Positions 1 through 25,725 of a DNA stretch of 25,725 nt are shown piece after piece. The notes below the pieces were generated by a model, which searched no databases, was not told the origin of the DNA, and saw only the letters and a list, made by a program, of their open reading frames with translations. Origin of the DNA: a virus; IMG/VR virus record IMGVR_UViG_3300042519_001270, positions 1-25,725 of that record. The stretch is one strand, 5' to 3'. How positions within the stretch are numbered: position 1 is the stretch's first letter; each line of letters begins with the position of its first letter. The position numbers and the translations under genes were made by a program.

Positions 1-178
1 AAACGCAGGGCGCAGATTTGGCTCTGTGAGCGGGTTCATTTTTTGAGTGGGGGCGCGGATATTGCGGCGCGGTTGTCTCTGTGAAGGAAATTTCGCTGAG
101 GGTTGTGGTTTTACCTCTAGCTATATAGCCAAGTATACAGACCGCAATCAAGCTCAAACCAGCCGAGGGTGAGAAATC
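1..178. other. Non-coding left edge upstream of the terminase genes
   Basis: I see no convincing gene here. The stretch holds a T6 run (38-43), a G/C-rich patch near 49-72, and the octamer CTCTGTGA twice (22-29 and 77-84, 55 bases apart). The right half is more AT-rich and contains a candidate promoter. The position just before the small terminase gene is where cos or pac recognition sites often lie in siphoviruses, but nothing here identifies one with certainty. Confidence 0.5.
110..139 (+). promoter_or_regulatory. Candidate promoter for the packaging/head operon
   Basis: A TTTACC hexamer (110-115) and a TATACA hexamer (134-139) are 18 bases apart, each matching four of six sigma70 consensus bases. 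Predicted transcription would begin near 146, leaving about 33 bases before the TerS start. The spacer contains a 10-base palindrome, GCTATATAGC (120-129), which could be a regulator site. Most of the surrounding sequence is GC-rich, so this AT-rich island stands out. No activity can be read from sequence. Confidence 0.4.
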
Positions 179-562
179 GTGAAAACTGAACCTAAAGAAA
201 TCACGCCTGCGCCTGCTCTTCCGGCCCGATGGGTGAAGGTCAGAGCAGAGGTCATCGCCAAACTCGGGGAGCCTTCGCTTTTGGATGTTGAGCTGGTGGA
301 TCAAATGATCGTGAACCTCGTGGAAGCTGAGACTGCTTTGAGGGTCGCTGCTCAGGAGCCTTACACCGCAGGCAGCCGGGATCAGCTTACCGAACACCCA
401 GGATTTCGTCTGGCCGCTCGATGCGAAGCGACCGCCCTGGCTATCGCAACCAAACTAGGAGTGATCGGTGCCGTCAGAGCTTCAGTCGAAGACGAAGAAG
501 ACGAAAAGCCGCAAGGTGTCGAAGACGAGCTTGCCGAAATCCGAGCGAGAAAAGCCGGATGA
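179..562 (+). CDS. Probable terminase small subunit (TerS)
   Basis: This 127-residue protein is called as the small terminase mainly from position: it directly precedes and overlaps the large terminase gene. TerS proteins recognise phage DNA and regulate the packaging motor. The predicted fold is mostly helical, with helices around residues 18-30, 38-60 and 75-95, which fits the family. I do not see a clear helix-turn-helix signature. The start is GTG at 179, with a GAGGGTGAG stretch just upstream as ribosome site. The C-terminal 25 residues are strikingly acidic (EDEEDEK near residue 105) and come from the same bases that encode the basic N-terminus of TerL in the other frame. Function is inferred from context; a generic small head-operon protein is the alternative. 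Confidence 0.7.
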   Translation: MKTEPKEITPAPALPARWVKVRAEVIAKLGEPSLLDVELVDQMIVNLVEAETALRVAAQEPYTAGSRDQLTEHPGFRLAARCEATALAIATKLGVIGAVRASVEDEEDEKPQGVEDELAEIRARKAG

Positions 563-2000
563 GCTTTCGACCTTTGAGCGGTTTTGCTCTCAGGTAATCC
601 TGCCAAGCGGTGAGGCTATGACGCTGGAGCCCTTCCAGCAGCAGCTGCTCACTGACTACTTCGAAGGCGTGAGGGAAACCCTCATCTTGATTCCAAAGAA
701 GAATGGGAAATCAAGCCTTCTGGCTGTGCTTTCGCTTTACCACCTGCTGACCACTCCCGACGCGGCCTGCTATCTCGGAGCATCTTCAAGGGAGCAGGCC
801 AAGATCATGTTTGACGAGGCGGTGAAGATAATCCGCCGAACTCCCTGGCTGACTGAACGCTCAGGCAAATACGGGGATGGACTGCTTCAGATCCAAGACG
901 GCTACAAGCGCATTTTGAACACTGCCGACTCTGGAGCCATGAAGGTATTGGCCGCAGATGCCAACACCGCAGACGGTGTTATTCCAACGCTGGCTTTGGT
1001 CGACGAGCTCCACCGCCACAAGACTTCTGACCTGTATGCGGTCTTTCGTGATGGGCTGGGACCACGCAAGGGCCAGATGATTACGATTTCCACTGCCGGT
1101 GATGACCTTGACTCACCGCTGGGGCGGATTCGCTCAGACGCTCGCAAGCTGCCGGGCTTGACCAGTGATGGTGCCTACCACTACGCCCGCTCAGGCTCGC
1201 TGGCCTATCACGAATATGCGCTAGAGCCAACTGCTGACCGCAACAACCTTGAGCTGGTCAAAAAGGCAAACCCCGCCAGCTGGCAGACAATGGAGGAGCT
1301 GGAGATTCGCCAAGAGTCTTCAACCATGCGCTCATGGGAGTGGGCCCGCTTTGCCTGCGGTGTCTGGGTTTATGGCGAAGACACAGCGATAACTGACACC
1401 GAGTGGCGCGGCTGCGCTGATCGAAAAGCCCGCATTCCAGACGGGGCGCAAGGCGTGATGGTCGGCATTGATGTTGGACTCAGGCGAGACACCACCGCGA
1501 TTGTGCCGGTGTGGCAGGAGAGTGAAGAGGCCCAGATTGTGGTTCACCCACCCGCGATCATTAGCCCGCCAGATGAAGGCGCAACAACCTTCAAAACCAT
1601 TCTGGCTGCCATTGAGAAGTTCGGAGCCAAGTGGTCTGACATGACGGTGGTGATCGACCCTAATGCTGGCGGTGAGATCCTTGCCGACCGCATCGAGAAT
1701 GACCTGGGCTTTGATGTGGTCATTCATTCGCAGCAGCCGCAGCCAATGGCCATGGCAGCCCAGCGGCTGGTTTCGGCAATCGGAGAAGGCCGGCTGATTC
1801 ACCCAGATGATTCCGAGCTAAACCGCCATGTGCTCTCAGCCACCGCCAAAACGGTTGGCGAGTCCTGGCGCTTTGACAAATCAAAGAAGCGCAATGTGCC
1901 AAACGATGGCGTGATTGCGCTGGCCATGGCCGTCAGCCAAGTGGTCGCACCTACTAACGCACCCAGTGTCTACGAAGAGAGAGAGATGGTGGTTTTGTGA
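468..2000 (+). CDS. Terminase large subunit (TerL), ATPase and nuclease
   Basis: TerL is the DNA packaging motor and headful/cos nuclease of tailed phages. The 510-residue length is normal for the P-loop terminase family. A Walker A motif, PKKNGKSS, lies at residues 76-83. Walker B with its catalytic glutamate is LALVDE at 175-180. The RNase H-like nuclease is indicated by D335 (GIDVG), D397 (VVIDPNAGG) and D480 (PNDGVIALA). The GTG start at 468 is chosen because AGGAG (457-461) sits six bases upstream; this gives a 95-base overlap with TerS. Later in-frame GTG (516) and TTG (531) codons lack such a site. The N-terminal 30 residues are lysine-rich and lie outside the conserved ATPase domain. 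Confidence 0.95.
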   Translation: MPSELQSKTKKTKSRKVSKTSLPKSEREKPDELSTFERFCSQVILPSGEAMTLEPFQQQLLTDYFEGVRETLILIPKKNGKSSLLAVLSLYHLLTTPDAACYLGASSREQAKIMFDEAVKIIRRTPWLTERSGKYGDGLLQIQDGYKRILNTADSGAMKVLAADANTADGVIPTLALVDELHRHKTSDLYAVFRDGLGPRKGQMITISTAGDDLDSPLGRIRSDARKLPGLTSDGAYHYARSGSLAYHEYALEPTADRNNLELVKKANPASWQTMEELEIRQESSTMRSWEWARFACGVWVYGEDTAITDTEWRGCADRKARIPDGAQGVMVGIDVGLRRDTTAIVPVWQESEEAQIVVHPPAIISPPDEGATTFKTILAAIEKFGAKWSDMTVVIDPNAGGEILADRIENDLGFDVVIHSQQPQPMAMAAQRLVSAIGEGRLIHPDDSELNRHVLSATAKTVGESWRFDKSKKRNVPNDGVIALAMAVSQVVAPTNAPSVYEEREMVVL

Positions 2001-2128
2001 CATACCTATTCTTCGCGGGCCTTGCCTGTGTAGTTGCTGGATTCGCTTGGATCTTCCCGCCAGCTGGCCTGATTGCCGCTGGACTTTTTGCCGTTGTCAT
2101 CGCCCTGAAGGTAGGTGAAGAGGCTTGA
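1997..2128 (+). CDS. Small hydrophobic membrane protein between TerL and portal
   Basis: A 43-residue open frame starts at GTG 1997, overlapping the TerL stop, and ends at 2128, overlapping the portal start. The sequence is almost entirely hydrophobic, with two probable membrane segments (residues 2-20 and 22-37) separated by a PP turn, and a short charged tail, KVGEEA. A TGGTGG stretch lies four bases upstream as a weak ribosome site. The tight overlaps on both sides support translation. I do not recognise a family. It could be a virion-associated or superinfection-related peptide, but nothing in the sequence decides this. Confidence 0.6.
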   Translation: MTYLFFAGLACVVAGFAWIFPPAGLIAAGLFAVVIALKVGEEA

Positions 2129-3249
2129 GCTTCCTAGACCGATTGCGCGGTGAAACGCGCTCAGCTCAGCTCGCAGCGCCACCAACATGGCTCATGGAGG
2201 CACTGAACCCTGGCGGCTCGCTGATTGGCAAGCCGGTTTCTGTTCAAAACGCTCTCGGGCTGGTGCCCATTTATTCAGCAGTCCAGCTCATCTCAGGCAC
2301 GGTTGCCACGATGCCGCTGAAGGTCTACAGAACCGTCAACGGTGAAACCACCGAAACCACCGGCCCAATGTCTGACCTGCTCCACTATCAGCCAAACCCA
2401 GAGATGGCAGCTGAAGAACTCTGGAGCATTGTGACCTCCCACCTGCTGCTCTGGGGCAATGCCTTCCTTTACAAAAAGCCGGGCCCGCTTGGAGTCTCTG
2501 AGCTTTGGCCCATCTCACCGAGGCGGGTTTCTGTTGCTCGAATCAACACGCAGCGGGTGTTCTATGTGGACGGCAAAACCTTTTCTGAGACTGAGATTCT
2601 CCAGATCCGTGGGCTTTCCGAAGATGGGCTGGTTGGATATTCGCCAATCCAAGTCAACAAGCAGGCGATTGCCAACGCCCTTGCCCAGCAGCGGTTCGTG
2701 GCTGAGTTCCTGAATGAAGGCGGCAGGCCGTCAGTCATCTTGCGCCATCCGAACCAGCTTTCAACGGATGCGGCCAAGCGGCTGAAGGCATCATGGGAGT
2801 CAGTTGGCTCAGGCGGGACTGCCGTGCTGGAAGAAGGCGTGGAGGTTGAGAAGTGGACGATGCCCCTGGCCGACGCTCAGTTTGTCGAGCAGCAGCAGTT
2901 CTCAGACTTGCGGATTGCTCAGATGTTCAACCTGCCGCCATCGAAGCTGGGTGCCAAGTCCGGTGACTCGCTGACCTACTCAACCACTGAGCAGCAGGCC
3001 AAAGCCTTCCTGACTGATTGCCTGAATCCCATTCTTGTCCGCATTGAAAACTCACTGCGGCGTGACGCAGACATTCTTCCTGTCGATTACCAGGCCGAGT
3101 TCCTTGTTGAAGGAATCCTGCGGCCCGATACCAAAACCCGCTTCGAGGCTTACAAGGTCGCACTCGAAGCTGGGTTCATGACAATCGACGAGGTTCGACT
3201 CAAGGAGAACCTTCCCACGTTAGGAGAAACGCAAAATGAGACCGAGTGA
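2125..3249 (+). CDS. Portal protein, HK97 family
   Basis: The portal is the dodecameric ring at the unique capsid vertex through which DNA enters and leaves. The 374-residue sequence shows the usual HK97-type pattern. An N-terminal segment, SAVQLISGTVATMPLKVYR, lies near residues 50-69. A central wing/stem region follows, containing YSPIQVNKQAIANAL. The late motif FNLPPSKLG comes before the long C-terminal helix. The TTG start at 2125 overlaps the stop of the preceding small gene by four bases, so translation is probably coupled. It lies between TerL and the protease, which is the standard order. The C-terminus (LPTLGETQNE) overlaps the protease start by 14 bases. Confidence 0.93.
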   Translation: MSFLDRLRGETRSAQLAAPPTWLMEALNPGGSLIGKPVSVQNALGLVPIYSAVQLISGTVATMPLKVYRTVNGETTETTGPMSDLLHYQPNPEMAAEELWSIVTSHLLLWGNAFLYKKPGPLGVSELWPISPRRVSVARINTQRVFYVDGKTFSETEILQIRGLSEDGLVGYSPIQVNKQAIANALAQQRFVAEFLNEGGRPSVILRHPNQLSTDAAKRLKASWESVGSGGTAVLEEGVEVEKWTMPLADAQFVEQQQFSDLRIAQMFNLPPSKLGAKSGDSLTYSTTEQQAKAFLTDCLNPILVRIENSLRRDADILPVDYQAEFLVEGILRPDTKTRFEAYKVALEAGFMTIDEVRLKENLPTLGETQNETE

Positions 3250-4012
3250 CCCACCGGCACCTCGCGGCCTCTGCGAGATTCGCGGCCTTGAGCTGCGTGA
3301 CGCTGAACCCGATCCAGACACTGGCGCAAACCGCTGGGAGTTCGTAGGACATGCTGCCGTCTTTGACTCACTCTCAGAGAACCTGGGGGGCTTCCGTGAA
3401 GTAATCAAGCGCGGAGCCTTCAAGGAAGTTCTGACCGATGACGTGCGGCTGCTGGTCAATCACGACCCGAACATGCCGCTGGCACGTGGCGAGCAGCTGG
3501 AGCTCACCGAAGATCCGACTGGGCTTCAGGTTAGGGCGATGATTCGTGAGGATCTTTCCTACGCCCGTGACCTTCGGATCAACCTGGAGGAAGGCAACGT
3601 CACGCAGATGAGCTTTGCCTTCGGCTCCGATGTGGAGGACGATTGGACCGAGGACGCGGACGGGCTGCTGGTGCGGACCATCAAGCGGTTCGGTTCACTG
3701 TTTGACGTTTCTCCCGTGACCTACCCGGCATACCCCGCGACTGACGCGGCGATTCGGGCGATCAACAGACTTGGCAGAGGTGACATGAACATCTCTGCCG
3801 AAGAGTGGAACGCGATTGACGCATTCCGCAGCACGCCGACTGAGGTGGACACAGAAGCACGCGACGATAAGGCTGACTCTCCAGAGCTTGTCGATGAGGT
3901 CGCTGTGTCTGAAGAGAGTACGGAAGTCGCAGACGACGAACGCGGAGCAGGTCTGACGACCGTGGCCGCATCACGTCGCATCTCACTACTGGCCAACAGA
4001 GCCAGGTCATAA
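3236..4012 (+). CDS. Prohead maturation protease, HK97/S78 family
   Basis: This serine protease of the HK97 prohead type trims the capsid delta domain and itself during head maturation. In 258 residues it shows the family signatures: GHAAVFDSLSENLGGFREVI near residues 38-57, the catalytic histidine in LLVNHDP (H76), and the catalytic serine in QMSFAFG (S126). The protease domain ends near residue 175. The rest (about 180-258) is acidic and low in complexity, probably a self-cleaved scaffold-like tail. The ATG at 3236 has AGGAG at 3222-3226 upstream. It is directly followed by the capsid gene, as expected. Confidence 0.92.
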   Translation: MRPSDPPAPRGLCEIRGLELRDAEPDPDTGANRWEFVGHAAVFDSLSENLGGFREVIKRGAFKEVLTDDVRLLVNHDPNMPLARGEQLELTEDPTGLQVRAMIREDLSYARDLRINLEEGNVTQMSFAFGSDVEDDWTEDADGLLVRTIKRFGSLFDVSPVTYPAYPATDAAIRAINRLGRGDMNISAEEWNAIDAFRSTPTEVDTEARDDKADSPELVDEVAVSEESTEVADDERGAGLTTVAASRRISLLANRARS

Positions 4013-4038
4013 CAAAGCAATCCGAAAGGAGAAACGCG

Positions 4039-5256
4039 ATGAGCGTTTCCATAATCGAAGACCTTCGCGCACGGCGCAAGGGACTTCTGGACGAGATGCG
4101 AAGCATCCAGTCCGCAGCCGAGGCCGCTGACCGCGACCTCACAGCAGAAGAGGCACAGGAGTTTGGGCGGCGCGAAAGTGATTTCGATGCCATCTCAGAG
4201 CGGGTTGACCGTCTTGAGAAGCTCGAAGGACTCGCAGTTGACAGCCACCGGGCGAACCCGGCGATGGTTGACTCTGACTCTGAGCCGACCGTTTCCGTCG
4301 ATCCGGCTGAGCAGCGTGAAGTCGAGATCCGCGCCTTCGAGAACGTCCTGCGTAACAAGGGCGACCTCAGCAAGCTGGCCAAGGAAGAGCGTGCCGCTCT
4401 CCAGGTCGGCACTGACTCAGAAGGTGGCTTCACCGTTCCTGACGCTTTCCTGCGCCAGATCGTTGAGTCCATGCGTGAGTTCGGTGTCATCAACGCCCTC
4501 GCCACCCACATCACCACGGGTGACAACGGCCAGCTGACCATCCCGACTGTTGCCTCCAACTCAACCGCAGCGTGGACCGCTGAAGAGGCCGCATTCACCC
4601 AGGCAGAAGGCACCTTCGGTCAGATCGTGCTCAACGCCTACAAGGTCGGTGTCATCTCCAAGATCAGCGACGAGCTGATTCAGGACAGCGCCTTCGACCT
4701 GCTGAGCTGGCTCGCCAAGGATCACGGCGAAGCTCTCGGGCTCAAGACCGGCGAGGCTTACGCCACCGGCGCTTCCAACTCGACCACCACCCCGAAGGGT
4801 CTGCTCAACAGGGCGACTGCTGGAGTGACCACTGCGGTCAACACCGGCTTCACCGCTGACGAGCTCATTGACCTGGTTCATTCGGTGACCTCGCCTTACC
4901 GGGCGAACGCCTCGTGGATCATCAACGATGCGACGGTCAAGATCGTCCGCAAGTTCCAGGACCAGGATGACCAGTACATCTGGCAGCCGGGACTCCAGGC
5001 CGGTACGCCTGACCTGCTGCTTGGCAGGCCGGTATACACCGACCCGCACGTGGACACGGTTGCGGCGACCAAGAAGGTTGCCATCTTCGGTGACATCGAG
5101 AAGGGCTACATCATCCGCGACGTGGAAGGTGTGACCGTGAAGGTGCTCAACGAGCTCTACGCAGCCGCCGGCCAGGTCGGATTCCGCACCTCGCTGCGGA
5201 CTGACGGCGATGTTCGTGACACCGCTGCTGTGAAGTCGCTGGTCATCAAGACCTGA
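4039..5256 (+). CDS. Major capsid protein, HK97 fold
   Basis: The 405-residue protein is the main shell protein. Residues 1 to about 75 form a charged coiled-coil delta domain (LRARRKGLLDEMRSIQSAAE and similar), the segment normally removed by the prohead protease encoded just upstream. The mature part begins around residue 95 and shows the HK97 pattern: GGFTVPDAFLRQIVESMREF, then KVGVISKISDELIQDSAFDL, then LGRPVYTDPHVD near the C-terminus. The ATG is preceded by AAAGGAG at an ideal distance, consistent with high expression. A strong hairpin follows about 20 bases after the stop. Whether subunits crosslink as in HK97 cannot be told from this reading. Confidence 0.95.
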   Translation: MSVSIIEDLRARRKGLLDEMRSIQSAAEAADRDLTAEEAQEFGRRESDFDAISERVDRLEKLEGLAVDSHRANPAMVDSDSEPTVSVDPAEQREVEIRAFENVLRNKGDLSKLAKEERAALQVGTDSEGGFTVPDAFLRQIVESMREFGVINALATHITTGDNGQLTIPTVASNSTAAWTAEEAAFTQAEGTFGQIVLNAYKVGVISKISDELIQDSAFDLLSWLAKDHGEALGLKTGEAYATGASNSTTTPKGLLNRATAGVTTAVNTGFTADELIDLVHSVTSPYRANASWIINDATVKIVRKFQDQDDQYIWQPGLQAGTPDLLLGRPVYTDPHVDTVAATKKVAIFGDIEKGYIIRDVEGVTVKVLNELYAAAGQVGFRTSLRTDGDVRDTAAVKSLVIKT

Positions 5257-5275
5257 TCGACGCTCACTAGGACTA

Positions 5276-5301
5276 GGACGGGGGGCACCAGCCCCCCGTC
5301 C
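5276..5301 (+). terminator. GC-rich hairpin after the capsid gene (terminator or attenuator)
   Basis: A perfect 11-base inverted repeat, GGACGGGGGGC / GCCCCCCGTCC, flanks an ACCA loop, 19 bases after the capsid stop. It is followed by only a short CCTTT stretch, not a real T-run. It may therefore attenuate transcription, protect the 3' end of capsid mRNA, or do both. Confidence 0.7.
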
Positions 5302-5327
5302 GAATCCTTTACAGACTGGAGCTCCAA

Positions 5328-5513
5328 GTGAAGATACGCATGAACACAGACTTTGGAACCGTGGATAAGAACTACCACGCAGGGCAGGAAGTAGACGCAG
5401 ACAAGGAAGAGGCCGTGGCGCTGATTGAAGCCGGCTACGCTGAACCAGTCGGTGCGGCACCGGCCAAACGCGCAGCGACTCGGAAGGCTCCAGCCTCCAA
5501 GTCTGACAAGTAG
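5328..5513 (+). CDS. Small head-region protein with lysine-rich tail
   Basis: This 61-residue protein has a short N-terminal beta-like segment ([11 protein letters not shown]). A small domain follows with the pattern [20 protein letters not shown], then an Ala/Lys/Arg-rich tail ([16 protein letters not shown]). The middle pattern, a beta turn and one helix ending in G-aromatic-x-E, recurs in many short phage structural-operon proteins and resembles the product of 9895-10062. GTG at 5328 follows GGAGCTCC. It lies between the capsid hairpin and the collagen-like gene. A role in head completion or decoration is possible but not shown. Confidence 0.7.
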
Positions 5514-5515
5514 AA

Positions 5516-6892
5516 ATGGCCTTCGTTCCTAGAGCCTGGGAGAACTGGCCCTCGCGGGAAACCCCGCTGGACGAGTTCAACCTGAATGACTTTGAGGACC
5601 GGATTGAATCCGCGTTTGATGAGATCGAGCTGACCCCAGGGCCAGCAGGAGCGACCGGAGCCACCGGCCCTAGCGGTCCTTCTGGGGCAGGGGGAGCAAC
5701 CGGGCCAAGCGGAGCCGCAGGCGCAACCGGCGCAACCGGCCCTAGCGGACCCACAGGACTTACCGGGGCGACAGGACCATCTGGCGTAACCGGGGCAGCA
5801 GGCGCAGATGGTGCCACCGGACCCACAGGAGTTACAGGCGCAACCGGACCAGCCGGAGCTACAGGACCAACTGGTGTGACTGGCGCAGCGGGTCCAAGCG
5901 GACCATCGGGACCAGCGGGCATCGCAGGAGCCACGGGACCGAGCGGACCCACAGGACTTACAGGCGCAACGGGACCGACAGGAGTAACCGGGGCTACCGG
6001 AGCGGCGGGAGCAAGCGGAACACCGGGTACGGCAGGAGCCACCGGACCCAGCGGCCCATCCGGTCCTGCGGGGGGCAGCGGCACACTTACCTTTGACTAC
6101 GGACCCCCGACTGATCCCGGCTCATCCGGTGATTACTACATCGAGATTGACGGCTCACCACTCTTTGATATTTGGACCTATGACGGTACTGATTGGGTTG
6201 ATTCGGGCATATCCTTTATTGCCTTCCCCGTTCCTCCGGGCGGCAGCACAGGCGAGGTTCTGGCAAAGGTTGATGCCGATGACTGGAATCTTGAATGGGT
6301 AGCGGCAGGCGGCGGTCCTTCTGGTCCTAGCGGTCCATCGGGACCAAGCGGCCCGGCAGGTAGCACCGGAGCAACGGGAGCAACTGGTCCTATTGTAGAT
6401 GCGACCAACCTCTCAGATACTTCGATATCGGTAAACTCTACTTCCGCCCAGACGATTGCCACTTTTATACCGAATACTGCTTTAGCTTCAGGGAAGGCAA
6501 TCGAAACAGAAGTAAAGGGATACCTGATAAACAACTCTGGGGCCGCAAGGACTTATGTATTCACCCTCGTAGTTGATGGAGTCACTTACCTGACCCACAC
6601 CGATGGCGCGACTCTCACAAACTCAGCCACAAACTTTTCGATTGTGGAAATATCTGCCGCCATTGTCACTCATTCTTCAGGCAGCGCCTATTTGCAGATG
6701 AGTATCAATCGCTACGCTCCTACTGCCGCAAATGCGAGACAGGCTATCGCCACGACTACATCAGGAGCGATTTATGCTTTGACAACAAATGACTTGACAG
6801 GCACTCCGACAATTCAAATAACTTGTCACGGCCAGAACACTACAGCTACGCAGACATTCCGGCGTAGGTTCCAGAAGAGCATCGTCATCTAG
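5516..6892 (+). CDS. Collagen-like phage fibre protein
   Basis: This 458-residue protein has an N-terminal non-collagenous segment (1-40) with the pattern [15 protein letters not shown], a likely oligomerisation or virion-attachment part. A long Gly-X-Y block follows (about 42-189, near 49 triplets, mostly GAT, GPS, GPT and GVT). Next comes a fibre-like module with the motifs [10 protein letters not shown] and [17 protein letters not shown], then a second short Gly-X-Y block (about 266-292). The C-terminal domain of about 165 residues is rich in beta-strand-forming residues. Phage collagen-like repeats are known to trimerise in fibres. It lies beside the capsid, not in the tail module, and just before a glycosyltransferase. 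No strong ribosome site precedes the ATG, so coupling to the gene upstream is likely. The C-terminal coding part is clearly lower in GC. Confidence 0.85.
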
Positions 6893-23452: not shown

Positions 23453-23743
23453 ATGGCAGCCAGCTACCAGTGCGGCAGTTGCCACACCTGCTGGCCGTAC
23501 TCGCCAAAGTATTCCAAGTGCCCTGAGTGTCAGCGTCCCTGTATGACCTGCTCAGTTCCCCGTCCGCTGACTATCGCCCAGGCGATAGACCGCCTGCGGA
23601 ACCTGGCCTTCATTCGTTACTGCGCTCAAAGAGAACAGCAGCGCACCGAGCTCGGGCATCTGTCACCGGAAGAGTTAGGCAGGCAGGAGGCCGCTGCCAT
23701 CATTGAGCAGGCCCGGCAGATCAGCGCACTTCCCGAGACATGA
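23453..23743 (+). CDS. Small zinc-ribbon protein
   Basis: A 96-residue protein starting at ATG 23453, just after the previous stop. The first 35 residues contain CGSCHTC, CPEC and CMTC, a zinc-ribbon-like cluster. The remainder is helical (TIAQAIDRLRNLAFIRYCAQ, then LSPEELGRQEAAAIIEQARQ). An in-frame TTG at 23429 would add eight residues (MSGSGGSE) but lies inside the upstream gene without better support. It is followed by the Holliday junction resolvase with a four-base overlap. It may bind DNA or RNA in replication or recombination, by context only. Confidence 0.65.
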   Translation: MAASYQCGSCHTCWPYSPKYSKCPECQRPCMTCSVPRPLTIAQAIDRLRNLAFIRYCAQREQQRTELGHLSPEELGRQEAAAIIEQARQISALPET

Positions 23744-24063
23744 GCAGGGGAGCGCAGGTCAGGGGCATCCAGAGGGAGCGCGACCTAGCCAACCAGCTTC
23801 GAGAGGAAGGCTGGTTTGTGCTGAGGGCGGCAGGATCACACGGGGAGGCCGACCTGATTGCCCTCCATGTCGGCAGGGAGCCGCGCATGATTGAAGTGAA
23901 GTCAACGACTCGCGGCCCGTTCGCAGGCTTTCCGCCGGCTGATAGGCGGCACCTGCTGGAATCAGCAAGCCAGGCCGGTGCTCAACCGTGGCTGGTCTGG
24001 TGGCCGAAGCGAAGCAAGCCGCAGTGGATTCCACCGAACGAATGGCCTGCTATCAAGTCGTGA
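23740..24063 (+). CDS. Holliday junction resolvase-like nuclease (PD-(D/E)XK)
   Basis: This 107-residue protein has the archaeal-Hjc-like resolvase pattern common in actinophages: RGIQRERDLANQL with E13, then GWFVLRAAGSHGEADLIAL with D38, and MIEVKST with E52 and K54, followed by RGPFAGFPPADR and the aromatic-rich PWLVWWPKR. These residues form the metal-binding PD-(D/E)XK core. It would resolve branched DNA during recombination or before packaging. It is the last rightward gene before a good terminator, and its start overlaps the upstream stop (ATGA). Confidence 0.85.
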   Translation: MSRGAQVRGIQRERDLANQLREEGWFVLRAAGSHGEADLIALHVGREPRMIEVKSTTRGPFAGFPPADRRHLLESASQAGAQPWLVWWPKRSKPQWIPPNEWPAIKS

Positions 24064-24088
24064 AGCAGTCCGTGATCTGTCCGTACAG

Positions 24089-24119
24089 CCCGTCACTCGA
24101 AAGAGCGGCGGGTTTTTTT
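24089..24119 (+). terminator. Rho-independent terminator after the resolvase gene
   Basis: CCCGTCACTC and GAGCGGCGGG form a 10-position stem with one mismatch and one G-T pair around a GAAA tetraloop, followed by seven T bases (24113-24119). It ends the rightward late transcript and also separates it from the convergent repressor gene. It is the only classical terminator with a clear T-run in this window. Confidence 0.85.
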
Positions 24120-24141
24120 GTGGGCAATCCCTAATCAGAGG

Positions 24142-24501
24142 TCAAAAGGATTCAGTGCCATCTTCTATGAGCTGGCGCAGCTCCCTCAGAGCGGTCATGG
24201 TTTCGTTTCTGGCCTCCTTCATCTGCTCGACGGCATCTTCCTGAGCGGTCCTGATTTCTCGGAGTTCCTCGAGCACCTCGCGCTGCTCGACAGGTTCCTC
24301 GCCGGTCAAAATCCACGAGGCATCCAGACTCAAAAACTCAGCCAACGCGAGAAGGTTGGTGCCCTTTGGCTCATCACGATCAGCAACCCAGTTGCCTACC
24401 GACTGAGCGGAGACTCCACAGTGGGTCGCTACCTGCTGCTGGGTTTTGCCCGCAGACTTAATTGCCTGCTTAATTCTTTGCCCTGGTGTCCTCGTTGGCA
24501 T
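24142..24501 (-). CDS. XRE-family phage repressor with C-terminal coiled coil
   Basis: The only leftward gene. The 119-residue product has an N-terminal HTH (about 6-66): PGQRIKQAIKSAGKTQQQ, VATHCGVSAQSVGNWVADR with the recognition helix, then LLALAEFLSLDASWILTGEE. Residues 69-115 are a charged coiled coil (VLEELREIRTAQEDAVEQMK and similar). There is no S24/LexA-type peptidase domain, so RecA-stimulated self-cleavage is not expected. The start at 24501 is chosen because GGAAAGG lies seven bases upstream on this strand. A TTG at 24567 would add 22 residues unlike the family. It faces the early operon across a 150-base control region and is the likely lysogeny repressor. Confidence 0.8.
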   Translation of the reverse strand: MPTRTPGQRIKQAIKSAGKTQQQVATHCGVSAQSVGNWVADRDEPKGTNLLALAEFLSLDASWILTGEEPVEQREVLEELREIRTAQEDAVEQMKEARNETMTALRELRQLIEDGTESF

Positions 24502-24542
24502 TTGCGCCTTTCCGCCGTCACCCCTGCCGGCTTCATTCAAGT

Positions 24543-24561
24543 GCCCTTCTTCGTGAAGGGC
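24543..24561. repeat. Inverted repeat upstream of the repressor gene
   Basis: GCCCTTC / GAAGGGC, seven perfect base pairs with a TTCGT centre, lies 42-60 bases before the repressor start on the minus strand. A TAGATT hexamer just upstream on that strand (24572-24567) could be the -10 box of the repressor promoter, which would put this element at the start of its leader. It may be an RNA hairpin in the leader or an operator. Confidence 0.45.
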
Positions 24562-24604
24562 TAACAAATCTAGCAGCCGGAAGTAAACCGCACCGCAAGT
24601 CGGC

Positions 24605-24617
24605 TTTCATCATGAAA
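24605..24617. promoter_or_regulatory. Putative repressor operator 1 (palindrome)
   Basis: TTTCAT-C-ATGAAA is a perfect 13-base palindrome (equally TTTCA-N3-TGAAA) midway between the divergent repressor and RHH genes. A related site lies exactly 40 bases further. Length and symmetry fit an XRE-type dimer site. Binding here has not been shown. Confidence 0.5.
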
Positions 24618-24639
24618 CCAAATCCGCCTAAAGTTGTGG

Positions 24640-24645
24640 TAAGGT
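24640..24645 (+). promoter_or_regulatory. Candidate extended -10 box of the early rightward promoter
   Basis: TAAGGT fits the actinobacterial TANNNT -10 pattern and is preceded by TG-N. Six bases separate it from the A of the ATG at 24652, so transcription would begin at or next to the start codon, giving a leaderless mRNA. No good -35 box is seen at the proper distance. The same bases include AAGG, which could instead be a ribosome site seven bases upstream if the promoter lies further left. Confidence 0.4.
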
Positions 24646-24655
24646 TTCACAATGA
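24645..24655. promoter_or_regulatory. Putative operator 2 over the early gene start
   Basis: TTTCA-CAA-TGA shares the TTTCA-N3-TGA form of the palindrome at 24605, with a weaker right half (TGAGC in place of TGAAA). The sites are 40 bases apart, close to four helix turns. It overlaps the start codon at 24652 and touches the proposed -10 box, so a bound repressor would block the early promoter directly. Confidence 0.4.
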
Positions 24656-24837
24656 GCACATCGCAAGGGAGCGAGGCGACCTACACAGTGGTTGTCGCAA
24701 CGAAGGTGGAACCGGACACACGGGACGCGCTGCGCCTGCTGGCCCGGTCCAATCATCGGAGCGCATCGGCTGAGGTTCGACTTGCCCTTCTCCGTCATTT
24801 GGATGCCGAAGTTGAAGCCAAGAAGGAGGCCGCATGA
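24652..24837 (+). CDS. Ribbon-helix-helix regulator (Cro/Arc-like)
   Basis: A 61-residue protein with the RHH layout: a strand (YTVVVATKV, residues 11-19), helix 1 (PDTRDALRLLARSN) and helix 2 (SASAEVRLALLRHLDAEVE). RHH proteins bind DNA as dimers through the paired strands. As the first gene rightward from the divergent control region it is placed like Cro. It could lower repressor expression or regulate the early operon. The start lies within the proposed operator 2, and the mRNA may be leaderless. Its stop overlaps the next gene, whose AGGAGG ribosome site lies within its 3' end. Confidence 0.75.
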   Translation: MSTSQGSEATYTVVVATKVEPDTRDALRLLARSNHRSASAEVRLALLRHLDAEVEAKKEAA

Positions 24838-25073
24838 GCGAGTTCGACTTCACACCAATCGTCTGCCTGGTGTCGCTGATTGTTTTGACGCTGTGGATTT
24901 TGCGGCAGGTCAAAGTGTTCCACGAGGCACCGACCGAGCAGCGAATTGACCAGCGGCTCTCAGCCCGTGAGATGGAGCTGACCGGGCCTGACTACCGGGA
25001 CCGCGTTGCTCCGTACTTCCGCAAGGTGTCAACCCGCAGGGAGATCGTCCGCAACATCACCGGAGCCGACTGA
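24834..25073 (+). CDS. Early single-pass membrane protein
   Basis: This 79-residue protein has one N-terminal membrane segment (FTPIVCLVSLIVLTLWILRQ, about 6-25). A charged cytoplasmic part follows (TEQRIDQRLSAREMELTG, then YRDRVAPYFRKVSTRREIVR). AGGAGG lies a few bases before ATG 24834. It is early-expressed by position and followed with a one-base overlap by another small membrane peptide. A superinfection-exclusion or membrane-anchoring role would fit but has no direct support. Confidence 0.65.
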   Translation: MSEFDFTPIVCLVSLIVLTLWILRQVKVFHEAPTEQRIDQRLSAREMELTGPDYRDRVAPYFRKVSTRREIVRNITGAD

Positions 25074-25150
25074 TGGAGCTGATGATTGTGGCCGCTCTCG
25101 GAGTTGCGGCAGTCGTGGTCTACCTCATCGGAGGCAAGCACCTTGATTGA
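25073..25150 (+). CDS. Tiny membrane peptide (25 residues)
   Basis: The frame from ATG 25073 overlaps the previous stop by one base and ends at 25150, eight bases inside the next gene. The product is one hydrophobic segment (MIVAALGVAAVVVYLIGG) with a KHLD end. The ribosome site of the following gene (GGAGG, 25130-25134) lies inside it. Tight overlaps support a real gene, but it could also serve only as a coupling leader. Confidence 0.5.
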   Translation: MELMIVAALGVAAVVVYLIGGKHLD

Positions 25151-25367
25151 CGAGATCGAAGAAGAGCTTCACAAGCGCATGGTCGAGGCAGTACAGACCG
25201 CCTGCGGAAACTTGGAAGACATGAGAATGCTGGCGCGAGACACCGCCAAGTACGTCGAGCGCAGCGGCATTCCCGGCACGTTTCACGCTGAAACCATCGG
25301 CCTGATTGAGCGGATTGAATCGCTTGAAGCCCGAATCAGTGAGTACGCCATTGAGGTGGTGGCATGA
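25143..25367 (+). CDS. Small helical early protein
   Basis: A 74-residue protein from TTG 25143, with GGAGG (25130-25134) eight bases upstream; this start is preferred over a far upstream one at 25086 that would run through the preceding gene in another frame. The sequence is all-helical and charged (MIDEIEEELHKRMVEAVQTA, then LARDTAKYVERSG, then IGLIERIESLEARISEYAIE with coiled-coil character). No family is recognised. The stop overlaps the following ATG (ATGA). Confidence 0.6.
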   Translation: MIDEIEEELHKRMVEAVQTACGNLEDMRMLARDTAKYVERSGIPGTFHAETIGLIERIESLEARISEYAIEVVA

Positions 25368-25558
25368 AGACCCACGAGAAGGTCATCAAGGCTCTTCACT
25401 ACGGGCAGCAGTCACCCTCTGAGATCAGCGTCAACTCGCTGCTGCCAGCCACTGAGGTTGTCAGCAGTCTGCGGAAGCTCCAGAACGAGGGCATGGTGGC
25501 GTACGAAACTGACCCTGATGGGCGGCGCGTCTACTACCTGACGGGCGTGGGCATATGA
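25364..25558 (+). CDS. Small winged-helix DNA-binding protein
   Basis: This 64-residue protein has the pattern of a minimal winged helix: helix 1 (EKVIKALHYG), helix 2 (SPSEISVNSLL), the recognition helix (PATEVVSSLRKLQNEGMV) and the wing (YETDPDGRRVYYLT). Such folds are found in MarR/ArsR-like regulators and phage replication initiators. It probably binds DNA in early regulation. Overlaps of four bases on both sides place it in the early operon. Confidence 0.65.
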   Translation: MKTHEKVIKALHYGQQSPSEISVNSLLPATEVVSSLRKLQNEGMVAYETDPDGRRVYYLTGVGI

Positions 25559-25725
25559 ACGTCGCAGACGCAAGGGTGACCGCATCTGCCTTCCATCAGT
25601 CGGGCATGTTTCCGAACATCAAGAACGAGGCCCAGGCTTACGTCTTGATTCTGGCTGGAGCGGAAATGGGAGTGGGACCGATGGAGGCGGTCAGCGGCAT
25701 CACGCTCATTCAGGGCAAGCCGACC
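25555..25725 (+). CDS. Start of a RecT-like phage recombination protein (partial)
   Basis: The ATG at 25555 overlaps the previous stop, and the frame stays open to the window end (57 codons, no stop). The segment GMFPNIKNEAQAYVLILAGA then EMGVGPMEAVSGITLIQGKP resembles the N-terminus of a widespread phage protein family annotated as RecT-like or hypothetical, found with recombination genes. Its place after early regulators and in a phage with a resolvase fits a recombination role. The rest of the gene is outside the window, so the call is tentative. Confidence 0.5.
   Translation, partial: MNVADARVTASAFHQSGMFPNIKNEAQAYVLILAGAEMGVGPMEAVSGITLIQGKPT

Follow-up and report, generated by a model that had tools for sequence, protein, structure and literature searches.

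The right end of IMG/VR virus record IMGVR_UViG_3300042519_001270 raises the question of what kind of immunity switch a phage would have when the gene facing its XRE repressor encodes, in place of a Cro-like protein, what is probably an RHH protein. The record, a virus fragment of 25,725 bases, was analysed over its whole length and is called the window below.

Layout of the probable immunity region and its two regulators

The genes at the right end, together with the regulatory elements predicted between and within them, are as follows (numbers such as L133 are our labels for loci in other contigs):

23740-24063, Holliday-junction-resolvase-like nuclease, first of the right-end gene series
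24142-24501, minus strand, immunity repressor of XRE type, 119 aa (HTH_3, P22 C2 and DicA matches, and a structure model)
24543-24561, inverted repeat with perfect 7-bp arms, GCCCTTC-N5-GAAGGGC, on the upstream side of the repressor start
24567-24572, minus strand, candidate -10 box of the repressor promoter, TAGATT (putative, from sequence)
24603-24619, predicted operator-like site 1, GCTTTCATCATGAAACC
24629-24634, plus strand, alternative -10 box TAAAGT, which would give an 11-nt leader (putative, from sequence; absent from the initial annotation)
24640-24645, plus strand, predicted -10 box TAAGGT (from sequence; 6 bases to the ATG)
24643-24659, predicted operator-like site 2, GGTTTCACAATGAGCAC, over part of the -10 box, the predicted +1 and the RHH start codon
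24652-24837, plus strand, 61-aa protein of the Cro slot, probably RHH (FitA-like_RHH below cut-off; alignment with the L163 and L164 proteins)
24834-25073, plus strand, small putative membrane protein, 79 aa, after the RHH gene (membrane helix by eye; L127 orthologue)
25143-25367, plus strand, small early gene, about 74 aa, containing site 3 (weak similarity to L133:4767-4997, E 0.0086)
25279-25295, predicted operator-like site 3, CGTTTCACGCTGAAACC, within the third of the early genes
25364-25558, plus strand, winged-helix-like protein, 64 aa, in the early operon (weak Pfam matches below cut-off; L133 counterpart, E 0.017)
25555-25725, plus strand, 5' part of a recombination-type early gene, truncated by the window end (orthologue L133:5182-5886, E 4.2e-16)

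The query for the small early gene at 25143-25367 was 25140-25367. The putative membrane protein is 34% identical to its L127 orthologue over 73 aa (E 3e-12), and the truncated recombination-type gene presumably encodes a RecT-like protein. The structural region of the window includes a collagen-like GXX-repeat protein (5516-6892).

The initial annotation had described an XRE repressor divergent from an RHH gene across 150 bases, and this was borne out: taking ATG 24501 as the start of the repressor, the two genes are 150 bp apart, and the RHH assignment is a probable one. GGAAAGG lies just upstream of this ATG, and the open frame of the repressor reaches TTG 24567. The inverted repeat at 24543-24561 could fold as a hairpin; the stretch 24501-24561 has a z of -1.7, which is not striking.

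Profiles and modelling show the repressor to be short, P22-C2/DicA-like and extended at its C-terminus by a long helix. It matches HTH_3 (7.4e-11), its closest solved structure in PDB is P22 C2 (4.6e-05; the top Foldseek match is also P22 c2, 8.5e-06), and the DicA model (NF007257) aligns to residues 2-113 (5.6e-15), scoring 55.3 bits against a curated cut-off of 101. The AlphaFold2 single-sequence model (pLDDT 87.7) contains five short helices and then one helix at 71-118, i.e. a predicted XRE helix-turn-helix followed by a C-terminal helix of about 48 residues. Neither Pfam nor NCBIfam shows a peptidase family for the 119-aa protein, and none is among its PHROGs matches listed (25 of 31), so the protein is, like DicA-type repressors, short and without a cleavage domain. 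DicA, at 135 aa, is described as shorter than the repressors of P22 and lambda (excerpt of PMC10448788). Because the window repressor is short in the same way, induction by RecA-driven cleavage seems unlikely here. Direct searches found no relative of the repressor in viral_contigs or genome_contigs; in the phages collection they returned 24 records, every one below 60% identity. No exact TTTCA-N3-TGA occurs in a 1,566-bp stretch surrounding the repressor gene of HannyBb, which was the top-ranked phage match.

The gene facing the repressor encodes a probable RHH protein, and this assignment rests mainly on its alignment with the L163 and L164 proteins, both of which pass RHH cut-offs (RHH_5, 27.1 vs 26, and RHH_1, 25.2 vs 20.5, respectively). 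The window protein itself has FitA-like_RHH as its best Pfam model (3.3e-05; 24.2 bits vs a cut-off of 27) and gave nothing in PHROGs or NCBIfam; PDB searches with it, by sequence and by fold, returned no RHH protein, and, modelled as a single chain, the window protein gave a poor structure with two helices (pLDDT 65.6). The corresponding L134 protein matched several RHH families, all below cut-off. Direct searches of viral_contigs and the phages collection found no relative of the window RHH protein. Among the open-access papers listed in searches on the subject, no title or opening of an abstract reports an RHH protein in a CI/Cro switch; one excerpt (PMC9703825) applies the term RHH to a ParG-like protein.

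Operator-like sites and the start of the RHH gene

Two TTTCA-N3-TGA sites had been reported 40 bases apart in the divergent region, and both are exact at the positions given: TTTCATCATGA at 24605-24615 and TTTCACAATGA at 24645-24655 (40 bp start to start). The count of two fell short, as a third exact copy lies inside the operon. The window thus holds three distinct exact TTTCANNNTGA sites (24605, 24645 and 25281), and the short motif is mildly enriched: three or more exact sites occurred in 2.7% of 300 dinucleotide shuffles (shuffle mean 0.64). Allowing one mismatch over the whole window gave no excess (17 matches, reached by 31 of 100 shuffles). The pair of sites alone is not significant, because the best intergenic 13-mer pair (11/13 identical) was equalled or beaten in 27 of 200 shuffles.

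A longer form of the motif, GGTTTCA-N3-TGA (GGTTTCANNNTGA), was defined from sites 1 and 2 themselves, to which it is common, and has one further exact copy at 25282-25295 and no other in the window; the shuffle mean for all exact copies is 0.06. All three copies fall within 24603-25295. Since two of the three define the motif, the independent evidence consists of the third copy and its place. Near-matches of GGTTTCANNNTGAR with up to two mismatches are spread through the window and not limited to the immunity region (21 against a shuffle mean of 11, with 16 lying no further right than 23181). Perfect dyads with arms of 6 bp are found at site 1 (TTTCAT-C-ATGAAA) and at site 3 (GTTTCA-CGC-TGAAAC), and site 2 has only partial symmetry. 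Dyad symmetry alone is not rare here, as the window contains nine 6-bp-arm dyads with a 1-base centre and nine with a 3-base centre. The centres of sites 1 and 2 are 40 bp apart, or about 3.8 helical turns, the centre of site 1 is about 41 bp upstream of the predicted +1, and the stronger halves of the two sites point towards each other. Site 3 may serve as an extra operator, as an elongation block or in the control of an internal promoter.

As the initial annotation had it, site 2 covers the RHH start codon (ATG, 24652-24654) and touches a TANNNT box, with base 24645 common to the site and TAAGGT. The further claim, that this box is placed for transcription to start at the ATG, agrees with the spacing: 6 bases separate TAAGGT from the ATG and the usual offset from a -10 box to +1 is 7 nt, so the predicted +1 is 24652, the A of the ATG. 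A TANNNT box stands 6-10 nt before the RHH start in all four RHH cassettes described below, and it is from these relatives that the placement draws most of its support. A sigma-70 scan of 23700-25725 gave no promoter on either strand and no -35 match.

Translation signals show a modest contrast. Pairing with the 16S tail is -4.8 kcal/mol at the RHH start (TAAGG, a weak Shine-Dalgarno match) and -5.0 at the repressor start, and the values for the next early genes are -11.0, -9.5 (a row 3 bases off the start), -11.3 and -6.5. A pairing of -5 or better was reached in 23 of 33 window rows, of which rows 23455 and 25146 are not true starts. At the GTG start of the L134 RHH gene the pairing is only -3.1. 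In mycobacteria, leaderless genes make up about 14% of the total (excerpt of PMC7148126).

Recurrence of the cassette in uncultured relatives

Using the neighbouring metallophosphoesterase, a scan led to four loci and an alignment to 27, with no relative in genome_contigs by the alignment; L163 and L164 were found by searching with the L134 repressor, and are therefore not independent of L134. The same contigs were counted once (L131 = L127, L130 = L126, L157 = L133 and L162 = L134). Among the relatives, L127 has orthologues of the window nuclease (60% identity) and of the small membrane-like protein, and L133 has those of the nuclease and of the recombination gene; each of the two carries an XRE (Cro-like) gene opposite the repressor. 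In L134 an RHH gene takes this place. Over all readable slots, RHH is found in four (window, L134, L163 and L164) and XRE in two (L127 and L133); L132 was placed in neither group (an XRE gene is present, and its neighbour L132:5543-5749 has no Pfam match). Run over the 27 loci plus L004 and L005, an XRE profile identified L131, L132, L133 and L134 (rows with E 0.054 and 0.24 were ignored), a partly circular result, as its seed proteins include those of L131-L134; an RHH profile over the same set identified only L134, itself one of its two seeds. A search by tblastn with the window repressor and RHH protein against L004-L125 gave nothing at E 1.

In the four RHH cassettes, the repressor always has a C-terminal tail beyond the HTH domain. 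The L134:10341-10730 and L164:2980-3411 repressors have nearly identical tails and different HTH parts, a sequence pattern as expected from domain exchange that would change immunity specificity. The distance from the end of TANNNT to the RHH start is 6 nt in the window, 7 in L134, 7 in L163 and 10 in L164, and the background for such a box at 6-10 nt is 27 of 2650 ATG/GTG codons in the four sequences, the four starts included. The RHH start is the first possible one in frame in the window, L163 and L164; for L134, GTG 10837 was chosen to match L163, with GTG 10798 and ATG 10816 upstream. TTGACT is common to L134 and L163, 16 and 17 bases before the box, respectively.

From the third base of the -10 box, L134, L163 and L164 each carry a 14-bp dyad with at most one mismatched pair. 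Those of L134 (CACTACCGGTAGTG, 7/7 pairs) and L163 (CATTACCGGTAGTG, 6/7) take in the start codon, and that of L164 (CAGTACGCGAACTG, 6/7) stops directly before it; dyads of comparable quality are found at 78 of 2648 starts. Site 2 of the window overlaps the same features, yet fails the dyad test that the three relatives pass. No clear second copy of the start-codon dyad was seen upstream in L134, L163 and L164 (best 8, 8 and 9 of 14 positions). L134 and L163 have 84% mean column identity over their aligned region, and because they are such close relatives, their unchanged promoter and dyad blocks are only mild evidence. Counted by lineage, the four RHH cassettes amount to two or three. In the L127 contig (L131) and L133, searching for exact motifs and dyads turned up no repeated operator in the immunity region.

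All six relative contigs tested contain an integrase, of the tyrosine type in the contigs of L134, L163, L164 and L127 and of the serine type in L133 and L005. No integrase is seen in the window record, which is a fragment; a temperate lifestyle is what we infer for the phage of the window. That cassettes of this kind are present in a few more uncultured phages suggests a familiar type of switch in a variant that recurs.

Looked for more loosely, the two-operator pattern occurs in at least 119 stretches of viral_contigs, mostly AT-rich. Reading the ORF lists of L086, L030, L110 and L041, we noticed no XRE repressor next to the sites, which in L030 and L110 fall within long coding frames. L086 (IMGVR_UViG_3300012005_000014) has six exact TTTCA-N3-TGAAA copies (2714, 6451, 8746, 9647, 9684 and 10911; shuffle mean 0.13), two of which precede the start codons of minus-strand ORFs by 21 and 28 bp; the copies would be possible phage-wide operators or partition sites. 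The L004 terminase is identical to the window terminase over 510 aa (window about 74-5850), and this protein identity points to the same or a very similar phage in another IMG/VR sample.

A probable variant of the CI/Cro-type switch and its alternatives

The initial annotation was correct in what it observed, though incomplete, and its interpretation is borne out in part. The locus is probably a variant of the CI/Cro-type switch. It has the divergent repressor and early regulator with operators between them, the operators being predicted from the motif, and differs in the Cro-slot protein, which by profile and alignment is probably RHH and not HTH. The account that we regard as the best explanation of the whole, and hold with reasonable confidence, is an immunity region of a temperate siphovirus in which the repressor occupies sites 1 and 2 and the RHH protein takes the Cro slot. 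The probably non-cleavable repressor would bind sites 1 and 2 as 17-bp dyad operators in the divergent region, and its long C-terminal helix probably oligomerises it, holding the sites 40 bp apart together. In the simplest reading, repressor bound at site 2, which overlaps part of the -10 box as well as the +1 and the start codon, would block initiation sterically. The early-operon mRNA would begin at, or a few bases from, the RHH start codon. Once the early operon is on, the RHH product most likely acts back, lowering the repressor or limiting its own operon. That it competes with the repressor for the same DNA is speculation; it could also autoregulate at site 2 or act elsewhere.

A more general form of the idea, which we offer only tentatively, is a mixed-fold switch in some uncultured temperate phages, where an RHH protein would serve as Cro and oppose an XRE repressor at a single operator. 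This would overlap both the -10 box and the start codon of an early mRNA without a leader, and would thereby control transcription as well as the first codon.

Several known systems share parts of this arrangement. DicA/DicC of the E. coli Qin prophage and P22 C2/Cro have, like the window, divergent genes for the repressor and the Cro-slot protein with operators between them (excerpt of PMC10448788), and they have a Cro-like HTH protein in the slot where the window has a probable RHH protein. The immB region of PY54 also has divergent repressor and Cro genes, and its cI and cro mRNAs are leaderless, with starts mapped at the AUG; its Cro is described as having a single site upstream of cI and not over the cro start, whereas in the window site 2 lies over the RHH start (excerpt of PMC4488713). 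Repressor gp33 of mycobacteriophage BPs uses palindromic operators at divergent promoters and copies elsewhere, as the window seems to; unlike the window, BPs has OR between -10 and -35, integration-dependent immunity and sites in five genome regions (excerpt of PMC4557955). Stoperator systems of the L5/phiC31 type have many (18-30) dispersed sites (same excerpt), compared with three exact sites in the 25.7-kb window fragment, all in one 0.7-kb stretch, which over this fragment goes against a dispersed pattern.

RHH repressors in phage decision control are represented by Arc and Mnt of P22 (immI); these form a second immunity region and are not known to occupy the Cro slot facing the prime repressor, so that they are like the probable RHH protein of the window in fold and unlike it in position.

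Which protein reads site 2 and whether the RHH gene belongs to the switch can be viewed differently. Site 2, like the start-codon dyads in the relatives, could be bound mainly by the RHH protein, which would autoregulate as FitA or CopG does, with the XRE repressor binding elsewhere. RHH proteins of the antitoxin type do autoregulate, and the dyad of L134/L163 differs from that of L164, where the RHH protein and the XRE reading head have both changed; the relatives do not tell the two readers of their dyads apart, because the RHH and XRE proteins change together. We consider this reading rather unlikely, given that lambda-type operators are odd-centred 17-bp dyads, which the window motif resembles, and that two of its copies, at sites 1 and 3, lie apart from the RHH start. 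Quite unlikely, in our estimate, is that the RHH gene is an antitoxin-like remnant or another early regulator outside the switch, with the repressor alone making up the switch. Its best Pfam model is indeed a FitA-like antitoxin, the FitA/VapB group being the nearest in Pfam, but no PIN toxin or other toxin gene is recognised directly after it, where FitAB and VapBC systems would have one: the protein at 24834-25073 has no Pfam match and an L127 relative in the same place. RHH moreover faces the repressor in four cassettes, and in two others XRE holds this slot.

The DNA elements can be questioned as well. Transcription may start further upstream, for example from TAAAGT at 24629-24634, giving a short leader in which TAAGG acts as a weak Shine-Dalgarno, and the overlap of operator and start codon would then be incidental. 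The pairing of TAAGG (-4.8 kcal/mol) is near that of the repressor and of several other window genes, which agrees with such a start; its probability is nevertheless low in our view, as the TANNNT box keeps its 6-10 nt spacing in 4/4 cassettes, the 16S matches of the next genes are stronger and the L134 GTG pairs only at -3.1. Finally, the TTTCA-N3-TGAAA sites might be chance or partition (parS-like) sequences, which we find very unlikely. We take GTTTCACGCTGAAAC to resemble a parS palindrome, and both the loose two-site pattern in at least 119 viral_contigs stretches and the near-matches across the window fit this possibility; however, parS palindromes have a 2-base centre and all three sites here have a 3-base centre, and three exact extended matches stand against 0.06 expected, two of them motif-defining and all in the immunity and early region. 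The parS and antitoxin readings were set aside on account of the 3-base centres and of the lack of a recognised toxin gene after the RHH gene, respectively.

The new part of the preferred reading, the temperate immunity region with the RHH protein in the Cro slot, is this RHH protein, which is found repeatedly together with an operator-like dyad where the start is of the leaderless type; a leaderless cro mRNA as such is already known from PY54 (excerpt of PMC4488713). If this reading is true, the second player of the classic phage switch would be replaceable by another fold with the layout kept, and an operator, a -10 box and a start codon placed within about 20 bp would make a small natural design. 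It would also aid the annotation of immunity regions in uncultured phages, in which such an RHH gene easily passes for a stray antitoxin.
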